Shown here piece by piece: positions 22,745-51,720 of a stretch of DNA of 64,000 bases. The DNA is from Gammaproteobacteria bacterium (GTDB lineage Bacteria > Pseudomonadota > Gammaproteobacteria > Burkholderiales > Thiobacillaceae): the NCBI GenBank assembly GCA_018820765.1, contig JAHJNN010000012.1, positions 248,001 through 312,000 of the forward strand. Direction: 5' to 3'. Made by a program: the position numbers and the translations under genes. The notes below the pieces were generated by a model. That model saw only the letters and a program-made list of their open reading frames with translations. It ran no database searches and was not told the DNA's origin. Every line of letters begins with the position of its first letter. The first letter of the stretch is position 1.

Positions 22745-23962
22745 ATGAAAGACAACATCCAGCCCCTGATCCAGCACACCGCCGCCGACTCGGGAAACGT
22801 CAGCATCCCGGCCTTGCGCGTGCTGTCGGAGATCACCACCAGCCTGTCGACCGATTCCAACGTCGAACAGCTGCTGGGGCGCTTCCTGTCGACCATGATC
22901 CGGCTGGCGGGCGCGCAGGCGGGCGCGGTGCGCGTCATCACCGACGACCGCACCCACCTGCGGCTGATCGGTTCGGTCGGCCTGCCGGCTCACCTGGTCG
23001 AGCACGAAACACTCGTCAGCGTCGACTGCGGCGTGTGCGGCAAGGCCGCGCGCGAGGTGACGGTGAGCAGTTGGAACAACGTCGCCTTCTGCAAGCGCCA
23101 GGCCAATGACGCCTATTTCAGCGGCAGCTGCAACACCGTGGTGGCGGTGCCGCTGATGCACAAGAACCAGGTCATGGGCGTCTACAACCTGTTCCTGGAA
23201 GAAGGCAAGACCGTTCCCGAGGACGTGCGCCTGCTGTTCCGCTCGATCAGCGAGCACCTCGGCATCGCGCTGGAAAACGCGCGGCTGACGCGCGAGAACA
23301 TGCGCATCTCGCTGATGAACGAACGCCAGATGCTGGCCAACCAGATCCACGATTCGCTGGCGCAGACGCTGGCCTACGCCAAGATGCGGCTCACCGTATT
23401 GAGCGACGCGATGCGCCACGAGGACTATCCCAAGGCCAACCGCTATCTCGGCGACGTCGAGGAAGCGGTCGACCTCGCCTACGCCGACCTGCGCGACCTC
23501 ATCACCCAGTACCGCGACCGCATCAACCCGCGCGGCCTGGTGCCGGCGATCCAGGAACTCGCCAAGAGCTTCCGCAAGAAGGCCAACGCCGACGTCGATT
23601 TCCTCAACCTGGTGCAGGACGTTTCGCTCACGCCCGACGAGGAAATCCAGGTCTTCCACATCATCCAGGAATCGCTCTACAACATCGCCAAGCACGCCCG
23701 CGCGCGCCATGTCGTCATCACCTTCGACCTCGAAAACGGCCAGTACATCGTCAACGTCGCCGACGACGGCGTCGGCGTGCAGAAGAAGAAGGACGAATCG
23801 TCCACCCTGGGCAAGAGCTTCGGGCTGACCATCATGCGCGAGCGCGCCGCCAAGCTGGAAGGCAAGCTCACCGTGGAATCGCGTCCCGCCGGCGGCACCG
23901 TGATCCGCCTGGTGTTCCCGCAGCGCGCCGCGTCCCACCAACACAGCGAGCACGCCACATGA
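22745..23962 (+). CDS. GAF-domain sensor histidine kinase of the NarX/NreB type
   Basis: 405 residues without membrane segments. The N-terminal GAF domain (about 25-180) contains four cysteines (95, 98, 116, 129) in DCGVCGK, AFCKR and SGSCN. A HisKA_3 dimerisation domain carries NQIHDSLAQTLAYAK (phospho-His near 204), and the HATPase domain has HIIQESLYNIAKHARA and VADDGVGV. It is a cytoplasmic kinase; the cysteine set could bind a metal, Fe-S cluster or respond to redox. Its stop overlaps the downstream regulator gene by 4 nt (ATGA), fixing its partner. Confidence 0.9.
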   Translation: MKDNIQPLIQHTAADSGNVSIPALRVLSEITTSLSTDSNVEQLLGRFLSTMIRLAGAQAGAVRVITDDRTHLRLIGSVGLPAHLVEHETLVSVDCGVCGKAAREVTVSSWNNVAFCKRQANDAYFSGSCNTVVAVPLMHKNQVMGVYNLFLEEGKTVPEDVRLLFRSISEHLGIALENARLTRENMRISLMNERQMLANQIHDSLAQTLAYAKMRLTVLSDAMRHEDYPKANRYLGDVEEAVDLAYADLRDLITQYRDRINPRGLVPAIQELAKSFRKKANADVDFLNLVQDVSLTPDEEIQVFHIIQESLYNIAKHARARHVVITFDLENGQYIVNVADDGVGVQKKKDESSTLGKSFGLTIMRERAAKLEGKLTVESRPAGGTVIRLVFPQRAASHQHSEHAT

Positions 23963-24624
23963 GCCTCACCCGCATCATCCTCGTCGACGACCACACCCTG
24001 TTCCGCAAGGGCCTGGCCGAACTGCTCGAACAAAGCGGCGAGATCGAAGTCACCGCCTTCACCGGCAACCCCGACGAAGTCGAGATGCTGCTGCGCGCCC
24101 ACCGCCCCGACGTCCTCATCCTCGACCTCAACATGCCCGGCACCGACGGCATCACGCTCATGCAGCAACTGCGCACCGACGGCTTCGAGCTGCCCGTGCT
24201 CATCCTCACCCTCTCTGAGGCCGAAGACGACCTCGCCCGGGCGCTGCGCGCCGGCGCCAACGGTTATCTGCTGAAAAGCATGGAACCCGACGAAGTCGTC
24301 GACGCCATCCAGCGCGCCCAGCGCGGCGAAACCGTCGTCGCCCCCGCCATGACCGCCAAGCTGGTCAACCTGTACGACAAAAAAGGCCAGGATTCGACTT
24401 CCCTGCTCGACGCCCTCACCCCGCGCGAACGCGAAATCCTCTCCCACCTGTCGCGCGGCGAAAGCAACAAAGCCATCGCCCGCACCCTCGACATCAGCCA
24501 CGACACCGTCAAACTGCACGTGCGGCATATTCTGGCCAAGCTGAACCTGTCGTCGCGGGTGGAAGCGGCGGTGTTTGCAGTGGAGCATCGGGTGGCGCCG
24601 GGGGGGCGCGGCGAGGGGCGGTAA
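23959..24624 (+). CDS. NarL/FixJ-family response regulator
   Basis: 221 residues. The receiver domain has DDHTLFRKGL and a phospho-acceptor Asp in VLILDLNMPGTDG. The C-terminal LuxR-type helix-turn-helix reads LTPREREILSHLSRGESNKAIARTLDISHDTVKLHVRHILAKL (in two parts). It is translationally coupled to the histidine kinase. NarL-type heptamer-like motifs occur upstream of dsrA, but regulation of dsr by this pair is only a conjecture. Confidence 0.93.
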   Translation: MSLTRIILVDDHTLFRKGLAELLEQSGEIEVTAFTGNPDEVEMLLRAHRPDVLILDLNMPGTDGITLMQQLRTDGFELPVLILTLSEAEDDLARALRAGANGYLLKSMEPDEVVDAIQRAQRGETVVAPAMTAKLVNLYDKKGQDSTSLLDALTPREREILSHLSRGESNKAIARTLDISHDTVKLHVRHILAKLNLSSRVEAAVFAVEHRVAPGGRGEGR

Positions 24625-43421: not shown

Positions 43422-43560
43422 ACCCTATCTCCTAAAGGACTTCGACCCGCGACGCGCTGAAAACGTGTGCGAATCGCCCTAACAACGTTGTGTTTACGAA
43501 TCGAACGCTCGTCCCGGCTCGCGCCGGCCGCATTCGATTGGGAAACACCTGAAAATCGAA

Positions 43561-43587
43561 GTCGCCCCGGACATTCCCCGGGGCGAC
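43561..43587. promoter_or_regulatory. Strong hairpin between dsrC and dsrM
   Basis: Perfect ten-pair arms GTCGCCCCGG (43561-43570) and CCGGGGCGAC (43578-43587) with a 7-nt loop, in the 182-bp dsrC-dsrM spacer. On the minus strand there is no long U-tract behind it, so it fits partial termination or 3'-end protection of a dsrABEFHC transcript rather than full termination. Confidence 0.75.
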
Positions 43588-43603
43588 CCGACGGGTTTAC
43601 AGC

Positions 43604-43939
43604 TTAGATACAGCCGGTCGGCTTGGGCAGGCCAGCGATCTTACAAGCCTGCTTGGCGGGGCCGTAGGGGAACAACTCGTACAGGTACTTGTTGTTGCCT
43701 TTCTCAGGGCCGAGCTTCTTGCCGATTGCCTTGGTCAGAACGCGAACAGCGGGAGCGATCTGGTATTCGGCGTAGTACTCACGCAGGAAGTTGACGACTT
43801 CCCAGTGGCTGTCGGTCAGATCGACCTTCTCTTCGACAGCCATGTACTTGGCGATGTCTTCGTTCCACTGCGACAGGTCGACCAGATAGCCTTCCTCGTC
43901 GACTTCGACTTCCTTACCGGCGATGTTCACCATGGGCAT
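43604..43939 (-). CDS. dsrC: DsrC, sulfur carrier
   Basis: 111 residues from the ATG at 43939, with AGGAG upstream. The C-terminal arm ends ACKIAGLPKPTGCI. Both redox cysteines are present, Cys99 and the penultimate Cys110, separated by ten residues as in true DsrC. It carries sulfur as persulfide or trisulfide between DsrEFH, DsrAB and DsrMKJOP. The spacer after it is the longest in the cluster and holds a strong hairpin, consistent with a need for more DsrC than membrane subunits. Confidence 0.97.
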   Translation of the reverse strand: MPMVNIAGKEVEVDEEGYLVDLSQWNEDIAKYMAVEEKVDLTDSHWEVVNFLREYYAEYQIAPAVRVLTKAIGKKLGPEKGNNKYLYELFPYGPAKQACKIAGLPKPTGCI

Positions 43940-45039: not shown

Positions 45040-45128
45040 GGCTAGTTCAAACTCCGAAAAAATCCAGTCATTGTTATCAAGCACCCGCCGCAGCCTGGCC
45101 GCGGCGGGACTGACAGCCTTCCAACCGC

Positions 45129-46199
45129 TTAGAAGCGGATGTGCGCGGACGCGTTCAGGTTGGCACGACCACCACGCCAGTTATCGATGTGATACTTGGT
45201 GAAAGGCAGGCCGGTCTTCTCGAAGAATGCGGGCCAGCCGATGCGGTCGATCCAGTCGATCATGCGCTCCCAAGGCTTGCCGTCTTCCTTGTAGGTGGCA
45301 AGAATCTTCTTGACCACTTCGCCCACTTCCGGCCAACGCGGTGCGTTGTTCGGCAGACCCGAGGCAACCAGCTTGTGGAAGGTCGGCTTGGAACGGGCGT
45401 TGGAGTTCTTGCCGCCCACCCAGATCGCAATCTTGGAGTGCTCGGGATCGTTGATCTGCATCGGCGGGCAGGGCGGGAAGCAGGCGCCGCAGCAAATGCA
45501 CTTCTTCTCGTCGACTTCCAGCGAGGGCTTGCCGTTCACCAGAGCGGGACGGATCGCAGCCACCGGGCAGCGAGCAACGACGGAGGGACGCTCACACACG
45601 TTGGCAACCAGATCATGGTTGATCTTCGGCGGTTTGGTGTGCTGGACGATGATGGCGATGTCGGCCTGGCCGCCGCAGTTGATTTCGCAGCAGGAGGTGG
45701 ACAGCTTGACGCGGTTGGGCATCTCGCACTTGACGAAGTCGTCGTACAGCTCGTCCATCAGCGCCTTCACCACGCCGGAAGCGTCGGTGCCGGGGATGTC
45801 GCAGTGCAGCCAGCCCTGGGTGTGCGCAATCATGGACACCGAGTTGGCGGTACCGCCGATGGGGTAGCCCTTGTCGTTCAGCGCCTTGATCAGCGGCTCG
45901 ACCTTGGAACCATCAGCCACCATGTATTCGATGTTGGAACGGGCGGTGAAACGCACGAAACCGTCGCCGTACTGGTCGGCGATGTCGGCCAGTTCGCGGA
46001 TGGTGTAGTGGTCCATCTGACGCTGGGTGCCGGCCTTGACGGTCCAGATTTCGTCGCCGGATTCAGCGCGGTGGTACAGGACACCCGGCTTCGGATGGCT
46101 GTGGAAAGACCACTTGCCATAGTTCTTCACCATCACGGGGTGCATGTAGGGCATCGGATCCGGTGCGCCGGATTCGATAGGCGGACGTAGTTCTGCCAT
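45129..46199 (-). CDS. dsrB: Dissimilatory sulfite reductase beta subunit (oxidative type)
   Basis: 356 residues. The siroheme/[4Fe-4S] region includes LSTSCCEINCGGQADIAIIV, followed by CERPSVVARCPVAAIRP. The inserted ferredoxin domain is KKCICCGACFPPCPPMQI. It pairs with DsrA in an alpha2-beta2 enzyme that, in this gene context, oxidises DsrC-bound sulfur to sulfite. GGAG precedes the ATG. Confidence 0.97.
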   Translation of the reverse strand: MAELRPPIESGAPDPMPYMHPVMVKNYGKWSFHSHPKPGVLYHRAESGDEIWTVKAGTQRQMDHYTIRELADIADQYGDGFVRFTARSNIEYMVADGSKVEPLIKALNDKGYPIGGTANSVSMIAHTQGWLHCDIPGTDASGVVKALMDELYDDFVKCEMPNRVKLSTSCCEINCGGQADIAIIVQHTKPPKINHDLVANVCERPSVVARCPVAAIRPALVNGKPSLEVDEKKCICCGACFPPCPPMQINDPEHSKIAIWVGGKNSNARSKPTFHKLVASGLPNNAPRWPEVGEVVKKILATYKEDGKPWERMIDWIDRIGWPAFFEKTGLPFTKYHIDNWRGGRANLNASAHIRF

Positions 46200-46264
46200 G
46201 ATTTATCTCCAACTGATTTAATGCACGGACCCCAGCTCGCACCGGGATCCGCGGTAAACGAAAC

Positions 46265-47566
46265 TTAAGCGGCGGACTGCTTGTACTCGTTCCACTTCTC
46301 GACTTGCTCGTCCCAGTCGTCGGAACGGAAGTAGGGGTTGGAACGCGGCGAGCTGATCATGTTGGGATCGACCGGGATGTCCAGACCTTCGAGGAAATTG
46401 GTCAGTCCGATACGCTCGATCATTTCACCGGTACGCTCGTGCTCCAGCGCATTTTCGGCGAAGAAGTCGAGAATATTGCGTGCCAGTTCGTTCAGCTTCT
46501 CGAAGTCCTCGTCGGACTCAAGCTTCATGAACGGGATGACCACGGTGCCCATGGAGGCGCCGATCTTCAGCACGCCCTTGCCGCCCACCAGGATGGACAC
46601 GCCCTTGTCGTTACCGGGCAGCAGGCCGCCGGGGATGACGTTCAGGCAGTGCATGCAACGCACGCAGTTCTTGTTGTCGATACACAGGGTGTTGCCGTCG
46701 CCCAGGCTGGCAGCGGAGACGTTCTCGCTGGCCTTGAACTTGTCAGAGGCAACCAGCGTGATGGCCTTGGTCGGGCACTTGCTGATCACGTCATTGACCA
46801 GGTCATTCATGCCGTGGGCCTTGAAGTAGTCCTGAACCTGTGCTTCATTGACGCGGATGTTGTCGCGCCAGGTACCGATGGTCGCCATGTCGGAACGCTG
46901 AATGGCGTTCATGCAGTCGTTCGGGCAGCCAGAGAACTTGAACTTGAACTTGTACGGCAGGGACGGACGGTGCATGTCGTCCAGGTTGTTGTTGATGACG
47001 GTGCGCAGCGCCTTGGCTTCGTCGTAGCAGGACATTTCGCAACGCGAAGCGCCGACACAGGACATGGAGGTACGCAGCGCGGGGCCGGCACCACCGAGGT
47101 CGAAGCCCATCTCGTTGAATTCGTCGAACGCCTTCTGGACGTTTTCGGTCTTGATGCCCTGGAACATGATGTCGCCGGACTGACCATGGAACGCGATCAG
47201 GCCCGAACCACCGGTTGCCGACCAGACGTCGCACATCTTGCGCAGCAGGTCAGACGTGTAGTGCATGCCAGCGGGCGGCTGGATGCGCAGGGTGTGGAAT
47301 TCGGCCGCTTCGGGGAACAGCGGCTTGTGGTTTTCGTCCTTCAATTCAGTGAAACGGGGGATCACGCCGCCGCCGTAACCGAACACACCAACCGTACCGC
47401 CCTTCCAGTAACCAAACTTGGTCTTGTAGGAGGTTTCCAGCTGACCCATCAGGTCAACCATCATGTCGTTATCTTTAGCCAGGCGCTTCAGGCCGGACAC
47501 GAAGCTGGGCCACGGGCCTTTCTCGAGCTCGTCCAGATTGGGCGTGTCAATCATTTGCTTTGCCAT
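46265..47566 (-). CDS. dsrA: Dissimilatory sulfite reductase alpha subunit (oxidative type)
   Basis: 433 residues. Siroheme-linked cluster ligands are CVGASRCEMSCYD (C-X5-C) and FSGCPNDCMN (C-X3-C). The inserted ferredoxin domain has NKNCVRCMHCLNVIPGGL. First gene of the cluster, with AGGAG before the ATG. The oxidative (rDsr) assignment rests on the co-located dsrEFH and dsrL; phylogeny was not computed. Confidence 0.97.
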   Translation of the reverse strand: MAKQMIDTPNLDELEKGPWPSFVSGLKRLAKDNDMMVDLMGQLETSYKTKFGYWKGGTVGVFGYGGGVIPRFTELKDENHKPLFPEAAEFHTLRIQPPAGMHYTSDLLRKMCDVWSATGGSGLIAFHGQSGDIMFQGIKTENVQKAFDEFNEMGFDLGGAGPALRTSMSCVGASRCEMSCYDEAKALRTVINNNLDDMHRPSLPYKFKFKFSGCPNDCMNAIQRSDMATIGTWRDNIRVNEAQVQDYFKAHGMNDLVNDVISKCPTKAITLVASDKFKASENVSAASLGDGNTLCIDNKNCVRCMHCLNVIPGGLLPGNDKGVSILVGGKGVLKIGASMGTVVIPFMKLESDEDFEKLNELARNILDFFAENALEHERTGEMIERIGLTNFLEGLDIPVDPNMISSPRSNPYFRSDDWDEQVEKWNEYKQSAA

Positions 47567-47945
47567 TCTTCTCTCCTAGAAAATTTCGAAATGCCCGCTC
47601 AGCCGACAGCTCAACGGTATTTCAGCATCGTATTGGCTAGACAGCTGCGTCACCATCATTCTCATGGGTAAAACGACTACCCCATCGCGGTAGGGATATA
47701 CCTACCCATAAGGAGTAGATGAATTCCCCCAACGCGGTAATGCCTCATCCTGGCAAACAGTGAGACATTAGGTGCTCGCCACAGGAACCGATAAGAGTAT
47801 TAAAATATTGTTGCGAACGCAAGCCCCTGCCTGCAACAGGGTTGAAATAGTACGGATTACCCTCATAAACGCAAGAAGTCGATGAATTGCATTGTCAAGA
47901 CAGTGCAGTCCATCAATGAATTGATGCAACCCGGATCGAGATTTC
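47567..47945. promoter_or_regulatory. dsr/satellite divergent promoter region with palindrome and heptamer motifs
   Basis: A 379-bp intergenic region between dsrA (minus) and the satellite operon (plus). GGTAGG-GATATA-CCTACC (47689-47706) is an inverted repeat. ATGGGTA (47664-47670), TACCCAT (47703-47709) and AGGAGTA (47711-47717) match the NarL heptamer TACYYMT on one or other strand. The rest, up to 47945, has an AT-rich patch near 47798-47812 but no unambiguous promoter. Confidence 0.55.
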
Positions 47946-48167
47946 ATGCCCGAAATTACCCCCCTGGACAAAATGCGCCTGCCGTTCGGCGGCCAGGAAG
48001 TCGAATTCCAGCACCTGACCCACGAGTCGGGCGGGGTGCCGTTTCTGCGCATCCGCATCCGCGAAAACAAACGTTTCACCATTTTCGATGTCGATCCGGT
48101 CAGCGCGCAAAAGTGGGCCGACCTGATGCAGGCCTGGGCGCATGAGCACGCCGGGGATGCGCCGTGA
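47946..48167 (+). CDS. Conserved small protein of unknown function
   Basis: 73 residues (MPEITPLDKMRLPFGGQEVE, TIFDVDPVSAQKWADLMQAW). No known domain is recognised, there are no cysteines and no signal peptide. It is the first gene of the satellite group and overlaps the next start (GTGA at 48164-48167), so the two are probably translated together. A longer out-of-frame ORF over the same DNA is rejected. Confidence 0.7.
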   Translation: MPEITPLDKMRLPFGGQEVEFQHLTHESGGVPFLRIRIRENKRFTIFDVDPVSAQKWADLMQAWAHEHAGDAP

Positions 48168-48820
48168 GTTGGGACTGGCCTGAAAACAAGCCGGAGGAAT
48201 ACACGCCCCACATGATCGACCTGCAGTTCGATCTGGTCGGCACGACCATCCCGGCCGACAATGCGCAAATGCTGTCCGACGCGCTGCAGCGCCTGCTGCC
48301 GTGGCTGGGTGAAGAGCGTGGCACCGGCATCCAGCACCTCAAGGGCGCCGAAACCAACAAAGGCGATGCCACACTCAACATCAACCGGCGCACCAAGCTG
48401 TTCCTGCGCGTGCCCAAGGCGCGAGTGGACGAGATGCAGCGCCTGACCGGACAAACGCTCGACCTGGCCGGCCACACCATGCAGATTGGCAGTTTCAAAA
48501 CCCGCGCATTCAGTGCGTTCGCCAATATCTACGCGCATTTCGTTGACACGGGCAGCGCCACTGAAGAACAATTCGTGCAGGACGTGATGCGCGAGCTGGA
48601 CGGTCATTTCCAGCTGCGCTGCGGGTTTATCTGCGGCAAGCGGCAAACTCTACAAAGCGCATCCGGCCCGATCCATGGCTATAGTCTGATGCTGCACGAC
48701 GTGCCGCCTCACAAGTCCCTGCAACTGCAGGACGAGGGCATGGGGCGCAACCGTTTGTTAGGCTGCGGGATTTTCATCCCGCATAAATCCATCGCGCCGG
48801 TCGTTCCGGCGAATCTTTAA
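48164..48820 (+). CDS. Cas6/Cmx6-like RAMP protein, no CRISPR array present
   Basis: 218 residues from GTG 48164. The pattern follows the MYXAN-type Cas6 (Cmx6) family: IDLQFDLVGTTIPADNAQML and LLPWLGEERGTGIQHLKGAE at the N-terminus, TKLFLRVPKARVDEMQRLTGQ, GHTMQIGS, and a C-terminal Gly-rich loop GMGRNRLLGCGIFIPHKSI. RAMP proteins of this type bind or cleave RNA. No repeat array, cas gene or phage marker lies nearby; its neighbours are sulfur genes. The family resemblance is from recognition, not a search. Activity, and even RNA binding, is inferred. Confidence 0.72.
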   Translation: MSWDWPENKPEEYTPHMIDLQFDLVGTTIPADNAQMLSDALQRLLPWLGEERGTGIQHLKGAETNKGDATLNINRRTKLFLRVPKARVDEMQRLTGQTLDLAGHTMQIGSFKTRAFSAFANIYAHFVDTGSATEEQFVQDVMRELDGHFQLRCGFICGKRQTLQSASGPIHGYSLMLHDVPPHKSLQLQDEGMGRNRLLGCGIFIPHKSIAPVVPANL

Positions 48821-48845: not shown

Positions 48846-49178
48846 ATGTCTTATGTTGTAAACGGCGAAGAGCTCGAAACCGGTGAAGAAGAATTCCTGC
48901 TGGAAGCCAACTTCAGTGACGACGTCCCCCCCGTCATCGCCGCGGCTGAAAAAATCACGCTGACCGACGAGCACTGGACAGTCATCAACTTCATGCGCGA
49001 AAAGTACAAGGAAGACGGCTCAACCCCCAACTTCCGCAACATGCTTGCTGAAATGGATGAACTGCACCCGGGCACCGACTGGAAGAAAAAGCTGTATGAG
49101 CTTTTCCCCAATCAGCCCGCACGCCAGTCGGCTCGCGTCTCCGGCCTGACCAAGCCTTACGGCAAGGGCGGCTACTGA
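48846..49178 (+). CDS. Cysteine-free DsrC/TusE homologue (RspA-like)
   Basis: 110 residues from the ATG at 48846, with AAGGAG upstream. It is clearly DsrC/TusE family (LTDEHWTVINFMREKYKEDG, WKKKLYELFPNQPARQSARVSGLTKPYG in parts). The C-terminal arm ends KPYGKGGY and the protein has no Cys at all, so it cannot carry sulfur as DsrC or TusE do. DsrC-family proteins without either cysteine have been grouped as RspA, proposed to be regulatory. It lies between the Cas6-like gene and a sulfurtransferase. Confidence 0.88.
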   Translation: MSYVVNGEELETGEEEFLLEANFSDDVPPVIAAAEKITLTDEHWTVINFMREKYKEDGSTPNFRNMLAEMDELHPGTDWKKKLYELFPNQPARQSARVSGLTKPYGKGGY

Positions 49179-49269: not shown

Positions 49270-50118
49270 ATGTTTTCCAACACCCTCGTTACCACTGAAG
49301 ACCTGGCCGCGCATCTGGACGATCCGAACTGGATCATTCTGGATTGCCGCTTCACCCTTACCGATACCGGGGCGGGCCGTCAAGCCTACGAGAAAGCACA
49401 TATCCCGGGTGCACGTTACGTGCATCTGGATGACGACCTATCCGCCCCCCTCGGTGAAACCACGGGGCGGCATCCGCTGCCCGATCCGCGCGCGCTGACC
49501 GAAAAACTCTGCGAGTGGGGCGTCGGCGTCAACAAACAGGTAGTGGTGTACGACGACAGTTATGGCGCCATGGCCGTCAGGCTATGGTGGATGATGCGCT
49601 GGCTCGGCCATCCTGGCGTCGCCCTGCTGGACGGCGGCTATCCGAAATGGACGCGCGAAAAGCGCCCGGTCGATGCCGACATCCCGGCGCCGCACCGGGG
49701 CGCCTGCGCCTGTCTGCCCGAGCCCACCCAGATCGTGGCGGCAAACGAGGTTTTGCACGCCTCGCAGACTGGCGAGCAGATCATTCTCGATGCGCGCCCC
49801 GACCGCCGCTTCAGCGGCGAATTCGAGCCGCTCGACCCGGTGGCCGGCCATGTGCCCGGCGCCATCAACTGGCAGTTCGACGAGAATCTCGACGTCGACG
49901 GCACCTTCCTGCCGCCCGAGGCGCTGCGCGAAAACTACCAGGCATTGCTGAAAGGCAAGCCCGCCTGGCAAGTGATCCACATGTGCGGGTCCGGCGTCAC
50001 CGCCTGCCACAACATCCTGGCGATGGAAATCGCCGGCCTTCCCGGTTCCCGGCTTTACCCCGGTTCGTGGAGCGAGTGGATCACCGACCCCGCCCGCCCC
50101 GTCGCCACAGGAGAATAA
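49270..50118 (+). CDS. Two-domain sulfurtransferase (thiosulfate/3-mercaptopyruvate type)
   Basis: 282 residues with tandem rhodanese domains. The N-terminal inactive domain includes WIILDCRFTL and HIPGARYVHLDDDL; the C-terminal catalytic domain has ILDARPDRRFSG and the active loop CGSGVTACHN with the nucleophilic Cys. SseA-like in size. It could mobilise sulfane sulfur for the Dsr system. It starts 91 nt after the DsrC-like gene, and the next gene follows after 2 nt. Confidence 0.92.
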   Translation: MFSNTLVTTEDLAAHLDDPNWIILDCRFTLTDTGAGRQAYEKAHIPGARYVHLDDDLSAPLGETTGRHPLPDPRALTEKLCEWGVGVNKQVVVYDDSYGAMAVRLWWMMRWLGHPGVALLDGGYPKWTREKRPVDADIPAPHRGACACLPEPTQIVAANEVLHASQTGEQIILDARPDRRFSGEFEPLDPVAGHVPGAINWQFDENLDVDGTFLPPEALRENYQALLKGKPAWQVIHMCGSGVTACHNILAMEIAGLPGSRLYPGSWSEWITDPARPVATGE

Positions 50119-50120
50119 CC

Positions 50121-50741
50121 ATGGCCATGCCCATTCGCGTCAAAACTGTCTGGTTCAAGAAGGACGGCGAGCGCAGCGCCGAAGAAATCGCCGGTGCCGT
50201 CGCCACCACCACGTGGCGCGTCGCCGACAAGGCGGTCGACAATCTCGGCCGCGAGAACTACGACATCATCACGCCGGCACGCGGCTTCAAGCTGATCGCC
50301 GAATTCCTCGCCTTCCTGGTGCATTACTGCGACCGCATGGCCTACGCCTCGCTGACGCCTGAGCGCCGCGTCGCCGTGCTGCAGGCGGTCGCGAACCGGC
50401 TCGGCGAAGTGATGGAAGAGAACATCATCAGCGTGGTCGGTCCCGACCCCAGCCGCAACTTCAAGGCCGAGTTCATCGATTTTCTGAACCGCCGCTTCAA
50501 TGACTACGCCGAATTCGAATTTCCCGACGACGAAAAGGCCAGCTTCCCGGCACTGCGCTTCCTCGGCCTGCAGATCCGCGACGAGATGGGCGACAGCGAC
50601 AAAACCTGGATCATGGACCAGATCATGGACATCGAAATGCCCGAAATGATGGGCACGGTGCGCAAGAGCTTCAAAGGCCTGCTATCCGACGCGCCGGTCA
50701 AGCGCGGCTTCGGTTCGCCCGACATGCTGCCCCCGGAATGA
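50121..50741 (+). CDS. Conserved protein of unknown function in the sulfur satellite group
   Basis: 206 residues from the ATG at 50121, with GGAGAA before it and 2 nt from the sulfurtransferase. Soluble, mixed alpha/beta. Recognisable stretches are VKTVWFKKDGERSAEEIAGA, ARGFKLIAEFLAFLVHYCDRM and FIDFLNRRFNDYAEFEF. No known family is recognised and there is one cysteine. Tight coupling to the sulfurtransferase suggests a joint function. Confidence 0.8.
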   Translation: MAMPIRVKTVWFKKDGERSAEEIAGAVATTTWRVADKAVDNLGRENYDIITPARGFKLIAEFLAFLVHYCDRMAYASLTPERRVAVLQAVANRLGEVMEENIISVVGPDPSRNFKAEFIDFLNRRFNDYAEFEFPDDEKASFPALRFLGLQIRDEMGDSDKTWIMDQIMDIEMPEMMGTVRKSFKGLLSDAPVKRGFGSPDMLPPE

Positions 50742-50815
50742 TTCCGCCCCTGAATCGGACATAGATTTGTCGCCTTCGGCTCAGCTTCGCGCCCTGTCCG
50801 ATTCAGGAACGGAAT
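50741..50815. repeat. Long imperfect inverted repeat (21-nt arms)
   Basis: The left arm 50741-50761 (ATTCCG, then CCTGAATCGGACA) pairs with the right arm 50795-50815 (TGTCCGATTCAGG, then CGGAAT). Each arm has a 2-nt internal mismatch and the loop is 33 nt. It fills the spacer between the 206-aa protein and the dioxygenase and lacks a T-run, so it is not a standard terminator. Confidence 0.85.
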
Positions 50816-50826
50816 CAGGTAACCCT

Positions 50827-51720
50827 ATGAGCAACCCCTTCGACCTCGCCGACGACACCGGCTATCGCGCCTGGCGCGACGCCAAGCTCGCCGCGTATCC
50901 GCGCAGCGTCGACGACCTGATCGTGCCGCTGGCCGACCCGCGCCATCTTACGCCCGACGAAATTTCCGCCCTCGAATCGCGCTGCGCGCGCGCCAACATG
51001 GCCATCTACAGCGCGCCGCACCTGCCCGCCGCCGACAAGTCGCTGTCCACGCAGTTGGGGCGCCAGCTCGGCCTGGTTCACCTGGAGGGCAACTACCTCG
51101 CCGACGAGGACGGCCTGTCCAGCATCACCCCTGCGGGCAACGAAGGCAGCGTGAAGGGCGAATACATCCCCTACACCCACAAGCCGATCAACTGGCACAC
51201 CGACGGCTACTACAACACGCTCGACCGCCGCATCCTCGGCATGACGCTGCACTGCGCGCAGGACGCCGAAGCCGGCGGGGAGAACGCGCTGCTCGACCAC
51301 GAAATCGCCTATATCCAGCTGCGCGACGCCAACCCGGGCTACGTCGCCGCGCTGATGCAGCCCGACGCGATGACCATTCCCGCGCGCATGGACGAGGACA
51401 ATATCGCCCGCCCCGAACAGAGCGGCCCGGTGTTCGCGGTCGACCCGGACGCGGGGTTTCTGACCATGCGCTACACCGCGCGTACCCGCTCCATCGTGTG
51501 GAAGGGCGACGCCGTCACGCAGGCCGCGGTCAGCGCCCTGGCCGACATCCTCGCCACGTCGGAATACATTCTCACCGCGCATCTCGCCCCCGGCATGGGC
51601 CTCATCTGCAACAACGTGCTGCACACCCGCAGCGGGTTTTCCGATTCGCCCGAACACCGCCGCCTGCTCTATCGCGGGCGCTATTACGACCGTCTGAGTT
51701 TTTCCACGCGCGCAGCTTAG
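50827..51720 (+). CDS. TauD/TfdA-family Fe(II)/2-oxoglutarate-type dioxygenase
   Basis: 297 residues. The facial triad is visible as HTDGYY (His-x-Asp) in the middle and NNVLHTRSGF near the end, followed by the Arg-rich segment HRRLLYRGRYYDR that binds 2-oxoglutarate in relatives. TauD-type enzymes release sulfite from sulfonates or hydroxylate other substrates; which applies here is unknown. Its position beside sulfur genes suggests an organosulfur substrate, but that is inference. Confidence 0.85.
   Translation: MSNPFDLADDTGYRAWRDAKLAAYPRSVDDLIVPLADPRHLTPDEISALESRCARANMAIYSAPHLPAADKSLSTQLGRQLGLVHLEGNYLADEDGLSSITPAGNEGSVKGEYIPYTHKPINWHTDGYYNTLDRRILGMTLHCAQDAEAGGENALLDHEIAYIQLRDANPGYVAALMQPDAMTIPARMDEDNIARPEQSGPVFAVDPDAGFLTMRYTARTRSIVWKGDAVTQAAVSALADILATSEYILTAHLAPGMGLICNNVLHTRSGFSDSPEHRRLLYRGRYYDRLSFSTRAA

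Follow-up and report, generated by a model that had tools for sequence, protein, structure and literature searches.

We found that a protein of the CRISPR-associated Cas6 family has apparently become a permanent part of the gene cluster for sulfur oxidation in a large bacterial group. Its gene lies next to dsrA, and facing away from it, in the 64,000-nucleotide stretch of DNA that was analysed (henceforth the window). The gene is near-constant in dsr carriers of one class, which we take to be Gammaproteobacteria in the wide GTDB sense (i.e., with the former Betaproteobacteria included), and was not found outside this class in the samples searched. Recruitment of the protein to the Dsr gene cluster is well supported by its dsr linkage and neighbouring genes, by purifying selection, by its tracking of dsrA and by the 50 of 79 carriers without Cas1. 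Its most likely function would be RNA binding or processing for dsr expression, and of the readings considered, control of dsr at the RNA level ranks first, with a probability somewhat under one half. The relevant features of the window are:

43559–43589, minus strand: GC-rich hairpin 3′ of dsrC, the first-proposed target (hairpins found also in loci without cas6)
43604–43939, minus strand: true dsrC, with a penultimate Cys (from its C-terminus)
45129–46199, minus strand: dsrB (adjoins dsrA; relatives in the fetched loci)
46265–47566, minus strand: dsrA, divergent (TIGR02064, 501 bits)
47567–47945, no strand: divergent control region between dsrA and the DUF6967 gene (alignment of 43 genus-set loci)
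47946–48167, plus strand: DUF6967 (PF22295), 73 aa (Pfam; model; overlaps the cas6 start by 4 nt)
48164–48820, plus strand: cas6/cmx6-like RAMP gene of the Dsr-linked clade (TIGR02807, PF09559, AF2 and Foldseek)
48846–49178, plus strand: DsrC paralogue without cysteine, C-terminus KGGY (profile matches; DsrC family)
49270–50118, plus strand: rhodanese-like sulfurtransferase, downstream of the module (Pfam Rhodanese, 4.4e-29)
50118–50741, plus strand: protein between the rhodanese and the TauD-like gene (no Pfam match over cut-off)
50767–51720, plus strand: TauD-like dioxygenase (Pfam TauD, 9.2e-18)

A reading of the DNA made from the sequence alone (the sequence-only reading) had described the open reading frame (ORF) at 48164–48820 as a Cas6/Cmx6-like RAMP protein with a Gly-rich C-terminal loop, and this identification held. 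The ORF has a GTG start and encodes an intact Cas6-family protein of 218 aa, which scored 228.5 bits against TIGR02807 (cas6_cmx6; curated cut-off 98.85), matched Pfam Cas6 (PF09559) with E 2.2e-61, carries the Gly-rich loop at residues 192–202 and is the only TIGR02807 match in the window's genome. The described layout is likewise as found: the gene overlaps the upstream ORF by 4 nt, dsrA is divergent, the small upstream protein belongs to DUF6967 and the protein encoded downstream is a cysteine-free member of the DsrC family. Structure prediction, proposed as a check for the RAMP fold, agreed. An AlphaFold (AF2) model built on 109 dsr-linked rows (mean pLDDT 94, pTM 0.87) has the predicted double ferredoxin-like fold, with Foldseek matches to Cas6 of several systems; the best were to Cas6 of a type I-B CRISPR transposon (8fcu and 8fcj; for 8fcu, E 7.2e-18 and TM 0.80–0.82), followed by Cas6 proteins from other systems.

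The transposon Cas6 (8fcj/8fcu) was also the one solved chain matched by profile (E 9.6e-34 by sequence), with no other found at E up to 1, and it shares with the window protein the Gly-rich loop and an asparagine at position 33. It differs in context, having been solved within the Cascade of a CRISPR-guided transposon according to the entry titles, whereas neither a cas gene nor an array was found beside the window gene; and in the printed alignment it has Q, A and T where the dsr-linked clade has R76 and H207-K208. The Cas6/Cmx6 proteins annotated on five cyanobacterial plasmids (L187–L191), 26–29% identical to the window protein, belong to type I-MYXAN, are basic and are encoded beside cas3, cas5 and other cas genes. 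By contrast, the dsr-linked proteins are encoded among dsr genes, are close to neutral in charge and carry an HK motif C-terminal to the Gly loop. The PADLOC Cas6 MYXAN model does not separate these clades, since the window protein (228 bits) outscores a genuine I-MYXAN Cas6 (L187, 172 bits), and dsr carriers would thus receive a CRISPR-associated label; the PADLOC Cas6b model leans the opposite way (89 vs. 188 bits).

Linkage to dsr was assessed in 399 genomes of the window's order, with TIGR02807 for cas6 and a dsrA model with its cut-off. TIGR02807 matched in 79 genomes, always above cut-off, and dsrA exceeded its cut-off in 84; two cas6 carriers with split or partial dsrA under the cut-off (G049 and G291) were counted as dsrA-present. 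Both genes were thus found in 79 genomes, cas6 only in 0, dsrA only in 7 and neither in 313 (Fisher's test 6e-76, a statistic that ignores the kinship of genomes), so that cas6 is present in 79 of the 86 dsr-bearing genomes. In all 79 carriers dsrA lies upstream of cas6 and on the other strand; the distance is usually under 1 kb and never exceeds 4.9 kb (in G035 the arrangement was read in the shorter locus L012). The sequence-only reading had proposed linkage of homologues to dsr without CRISPR as a test of recruitment, and the divergent dsrA next to cas6 in every carrier passes it. Within the window's genus, whose 36 searched genomes include that of the window, cas6 was matched in 35, the exception being 85% complete. 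Five of the seven order genomes with dsrA and no cas6 keep DUF6967 divergent from dsrA; another has its dsrA on a 4-kb contig, and in the last (G179) the one of its two dsrA places that was read has no module. Two dsrA places also occur in several other genomes of the order sample, and the window's genome itself has a second dsrA on contig C14 (L200:9520-11418) whose protein is 86.5% identical to the window DsrA; the 20 kb around it contain no cas6, DUF6967 or DsrC by profile.

Across the class the picture is similar. Among 323 genomes dsrA was found at E ≤ 1e-40 in 105, and 80 of the 104 carriers besides the window's genome were tested; TIGR02807 matched in 77 of them (73 above cut-off), with cas6 at most 6 kb from dsrA in 58, farther along the same contig in 2 and on another contig in 17. 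At phylum level cas6 was found in 6 of 397 genomes, namely the window's, four order dsrA carriers and one class dsrA carrier (G789). When the phylum was sampled again, 39 of 249 genomes had dsrA, 36 of them outside the class, and the phylum-sample search found cas6 in none of these 36, meaning that the pathway does not need the Cas6-like protein. Three dsr loci outside the class have a TauD-like gene and DUF6967 facing away from dsrA; the 12 kb read there contain neither cas6 nor KGGY DsrC. The search for phage homologues gave none in INPHARED at E 0.01, and 25 pattern matches in viral contigs yielded none that was confirmed.

In a midpoint-rooted tree, whose bootstrap had not fully settled, six plasmid proteins split from 119 dsr-linked ones with support of 100/95. 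The order and class groups separate, except for L143 and L151, which are nested in the class group (fork 94/82) and whose dsrA also scores like that of the class (598 bits), so that here the cluster seems to have moved whole with its cas6. Distances between cas6 proteins track those between DsrA proteins (Mantel r 0.647 over 107 loci, 0 of 999 permutations; r 0.315 within the class set, 13 of 999), with cas6 evolving faster (mean p-distance 0.59 vs. 0.26 in the order). Selection on cas6 is purifying, with a median dN/dS of 0.144 over 150 pairs of the genus set, and we read the protein, from its sequences, as being under a constraint of its own.

Individual residues separate what the dsr-linked clade has kept from what it has changed. 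R82, G192 and G202 are invariant in 109 rows, with G194 and G200 conserved in at least 90%, and R82 and the loop glycines are common to the clade and all six plasmid relatives. R76 (118 of 119 dsr-linked proteins vs. one of six plasmid proteins), G158 (117 of 119), H207 (106 of 119) and K208 (114 of 119), the last three with 0 of 6 among plasmid proteins, mark the dsr-linked clade; H207 and K208 are each present in 49 of 49 proteins of the genus set. The catalytic residue of Cas6 is often a histidine, although Cas6 catalytic residues vary. Of the two putative catalytic histidines, H33 occurs in 6/6 plasmid, 41/41 class and 52/78 order proteins and H57 in 41/41 class and 50/78 order proteins; the window protein has N33 and Q57, as do most of the genus set (N33 in 40 and Q57 in 44 of 49, histidine in just 1 and 3), and the transposon Cas6, in the printed alignment, shares N33 but has a histidine at 57. 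Median net charge is +6.3 in the six plasmid relatives, +0.3 in the order and −1.6 in the class (window protein +1.7). Given the loss of these histidines and of positive charge, cleavage activity cannot be assumed.

The gene is part of a recurrent module. In the order the sequence is DUF6967, cas6 and the DsrC paralogue, with a TauD-like gene further on; in the class (41 loci, i.e., 40 fetched plus G789) dsrA is followed divergently by the TauD-like gene, a small protein, sometimes another gene, cas6 and the DsrC paralogue. The TauD-like gene is on the cas6 strand in 61 of 77 order and 32 of 41 class loci (some stretches end at contig ends), and it stands between dsrA and the rest, divergent from dsrA, both in the wider class and in the three dsr loci without cas6. 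DUF6967 was recognised by profile at cas6 in 70 of 78 order loci besides the window, and in one of the 41 class loci (L260). The class small protein, present in 26 of 32 class loci holding both dsrA and cas6, was considered as a DUF6967 relative and is not claimed as one (best hhalign E 0.013, probability 3%). In some class loci a further gene precedes cas6, after the one for the small protein; its copy in L221 (L221:8197-9015) gave a Cse2 match below cut-off (E 0.018), a weak hint of CRISPR. The DUF6967 model (pLDDT 91.5) has a predicted bbbba fold whose best Foldseek matches are PUR repeats, with weak E values from 0.079 (PURA, TMq 0.67) and none at 0.001. PUR repeats bind single-stranded nucleic acid, and the predicted likeness hints at nucleic acid binding by DUF6967.

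The DsrC paralogue adjoins cas6 in 103 of 119 loci and ends in KGGY in all 103, whereas the true dsrC encodes a penultimate Cys in 105 of 106 cases (the exception is a cut ORF). In the window, the product of 48846–49178 is a DsrC/TusE family protein (TIGR03342, 74 bits; cut-off 53.5) which ends in KGGY, has no cysteine and thus lacks the C-terminal catalytic Cys of a functional DsrC. Among the 103 adjacent paralogues, 76 ORFs as called have no cysteine at all and 6 have a Cys at the first redox Cys position. Of the 13 genomes without an adjacent KGGY copy, eight carry cas6 and five do not; a KGGY paralogue was found at another place in 4 of the former and 3 of the latter. With KGGY DsrC found without cas6 and cas6 without KGGY DsrC, the pair is not obligate. 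In the accessible part of PMC13137333, the symbiont genes with the highest transcription include a DsrC/TusE gene numbered 11 after another one; it may be the KGGY paralogue, which we treat as a lead only. Three class cas6 loci read without dsrA, TauD-like gene or KGGY DsrC have differing neighbours. Away from dsr, one Cas6 homologue (L257:10739-12004) adjoins a sulfur-transport gene (Sulf_transp) and another (L253:10937-11725) has a TauE/SafE gene two ORFs off.

The module and the altered residues could also mean that the RNA function was lost, with the RAMP fold now serving as a protein-binding scaffold or as an inhibitor of the Dsr sulfur relay, e.g., by holding KGGY DsrC on DsrEFH or DsrAB. 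The lost net positive charge, the disappearance of the two candidate histidines from most proteins of the window's genus and the frequent adjacency of KGGY DsrC fit such a role. We nevertheless consider it unlikely, as R82 and the loop glycines, shared with every plasmid relative, remain invariant or nearly so, and half of the eight cas6 carriers searched (4/8) are without KGGY DsrC. Alternatively, the protein may act on tRNA or another sulfur-transfer RNA rather than on dsr mRNA, keeping dissimilatory sulfur and tRNA thiolation apart. DsrC is homologous to TusE according to the accessible text of PMC3397948. Since TusE is a sulfur donor to tRNA thiolation, an RNA-binding Cas6 relative paired with a DsrC paralogue could separate the two pathways; in one locus (L227), cas6 without the module adjoins an rRNA methylase gene. 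This locus is one of 41 in the class, however, and no tRNA-related gene was seen in the conserved module, leaving the tRNA reading quite unlikely.

Candidate RNA substrates were sought in the dsr gaps and 5′ regions. Each of the gaps dsrA|B, dsrB|E and dsrC|M (36, 34 and 32 loci of the genus set; window positions 46200-46264, 45085-45128 and 43422-43603) holds one conserved GC-rich hairpin, with folding energies far beyond column shuffles (no z could be given for dsrB|E as its shuffles gave zero variance), and the three differ in sequence and loop. Counting stems of 8 bp or more in the order dsrA|B, dsrB|E, dsrC|M, we found them in 22/77, 36/74 and 51/73 order carriers, 22/32, 6/32 and 25/32 class loci, 0/5, 0/2 and 4/5 of the five order loci without cas6 (zeros too few to weigh), and 2/3, 2/2 and 1/3 of the three loci outside the class without cas6. 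The dsr intergenic hairpins look like general operon features. The dsrC-dsrM stretch, with the stop and first dsrM bases included, is at most 25 nt long in 7 of 141 loci, all of them carriers. The 5′ region of dsrA is structured in the genus set (z −5.7), and that of DUF6967 shows no conserved structure (z 0.33). The hairpin 3′ of the KGGY DsrC gene is strong in the window and has no consensus across 49 loci; a 9-bp stem occurs there in 38 of 97 carriers. No RNA substrate for the Cas6-like protein was found among the dsr gaps and 5′ regions examined. Within the divergent region, an inverted repeat, TACCCAT-A-AGGAGTA at 47703-47717, is largely conserved across the 43 genus-set loci and presumably resembles a NarL/FixJ-type site; elsewhere in the window, the ORF at 23959-24624 reads by eye like a response regulator.

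The sequence-only reading had suggested a RAMP protein recruited to process sulfur-gene transcripts, for example at the dsrC-dsrM hairpin. Recruitment to the dsr cluster is supported, with cas6 beside dsrA in 79 of 79 order carriers; the dsrC-dsrM hairpin as target is not. As a general substrate this hairpin was rejected, its sequences varying between lineages, its stems being present without cas6 in order and outside-class loci, and seven carriers having no room for it. The broader proposal of a specific nuclease cutting the dsr polycistron at its intergenic hairpins could draw on the conserved hairpin in each of the three gaps, on the missing dsrA|B and dsrB|E stems of cas6-lacking order loci and on the accessible text of PMC3397948, according to which A. 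vinosum on sulfide contains more transcript of dsrEFH and dsrC than of dsrA. We regard it as very unlikely, given that the hairpins are unlike one another, that most cas6-lacking order loci keep the stem after dsrC, that loci outside the class have stems in all three gaps without cas6, and that seven carriers are nearly gapless after dsrC.

The absence of CRISPR context claimed by the sequence-only reading was retained locally and needs one refinement for the genome. No repeats of array type were found when the window was scanned for exact 22-mers recurring at the spacing of an array, and six neighbouring proteins had no PADLOC match at E 0.01; another contig of the genome (L261), however, carries a type I-C locus with cas1c, cas4, csd2, csd1, cas3 and about 51 repeats. 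Of 295 records scanned, the only ones flagged were this locus, one CRISPR plasmid (L191) and a locus without cas6 (L198), whose repeats we rejected as an array because by eye they are short palindromic units, presumably a REP-like cluster; the other five plasmid stretches were not flagged, and their arrays may lie outside the stretches read. Five of the six plasmid homologues (L187–L191) lie in I-MYXAN operons. The sixth, from a Gloeobacter plasmid (L186:7977-8768), lacks annotated cas genes in the 8 kb flanking it on each side, sits in a run with a PAPS-reductase-family gene and is a possible second orphan Cas6. Linkage of the dsr-linked genes to I-MYXAN cas genes or to an array was not found, dsrA being next door in all 79 order carriers. 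An ordinary displaced Cas6, processing pre-crRNA of an array elsewhere in the genome, is therefore extremely improbable despite the type I-C repeats and the Cas1 found in 29 of 79 carriers, given the linkage to dsrA instead of cas genes, the 50 carriers without Cas1 and the fact that, to our knowledge, type I-C has no Cas6, its crRNA being matured by Cas5.

Capture by the dsr cluster with an RNA-level role in the Dsr system is the best explanation overall, and we put its chances at about even. A Cas6 of the type I-MYXAN/I-B transposon branch would have been captured long ago by the oxidative dsr (rDsr) cluster of one class and since retained with it, mostly by vertical descent. The protein would bind a structured RNA from the dsr regulon, which it may also cleave in some lineages, in concert with DUF6967 (the small protein) and the KGGY paralogue of DsrC. 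Having no catalytic cysteine, this paralogue should not carry sulfur; it could report whether DsrEFH, DsrC and DsrAB are occupied, and this signal would couple sulfur flux to the processing or stability of dsr transcripts. That the Cas6-like protein is a post-transcriptional factor of the Dsr system we judge a little less than evenly probable. More tentatively, and with the balance leaning against so specific a form, a permanently domesticated Cas6 may regulate reverse sulfite reduction at the RNA level; together with a small PUR-like protein and a DsrC decoy devoid of the catalytic cysteine, it would sense the state of the sulfur relay in the cytoplasm and adjust dsr operon output through RNA recognition unrelated to CRISPR repeats.

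In the openly accessible parts of the literature searched, we found neither a dsr-linked Cas6 nor a Cas6 tied to one metabolic cluster. Solo-Cas4 offers a parallel as a cas-family gene living outside CRISPR loci (PMC5704561). The exaptations of CRISPR parts described in the accessible portions of PMC8730458 and PMC6452270 concern defence, transposons or unexplored roles, and a Cas family established as a fixture of a metabolic cluster is absent from them. The Cas6-like gene appears to be present in more than nine in ten of the sampled dsr-bearing genomes of the class (79/86 in the order; 77/80 tested in the class), which means that such sulfur oxidizers match a CRISPR-associated family model although the gene concerned shows no trace of a role in CRISPR. 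It also makes testable the question of why parts of the dsr transcript differ in abundance.
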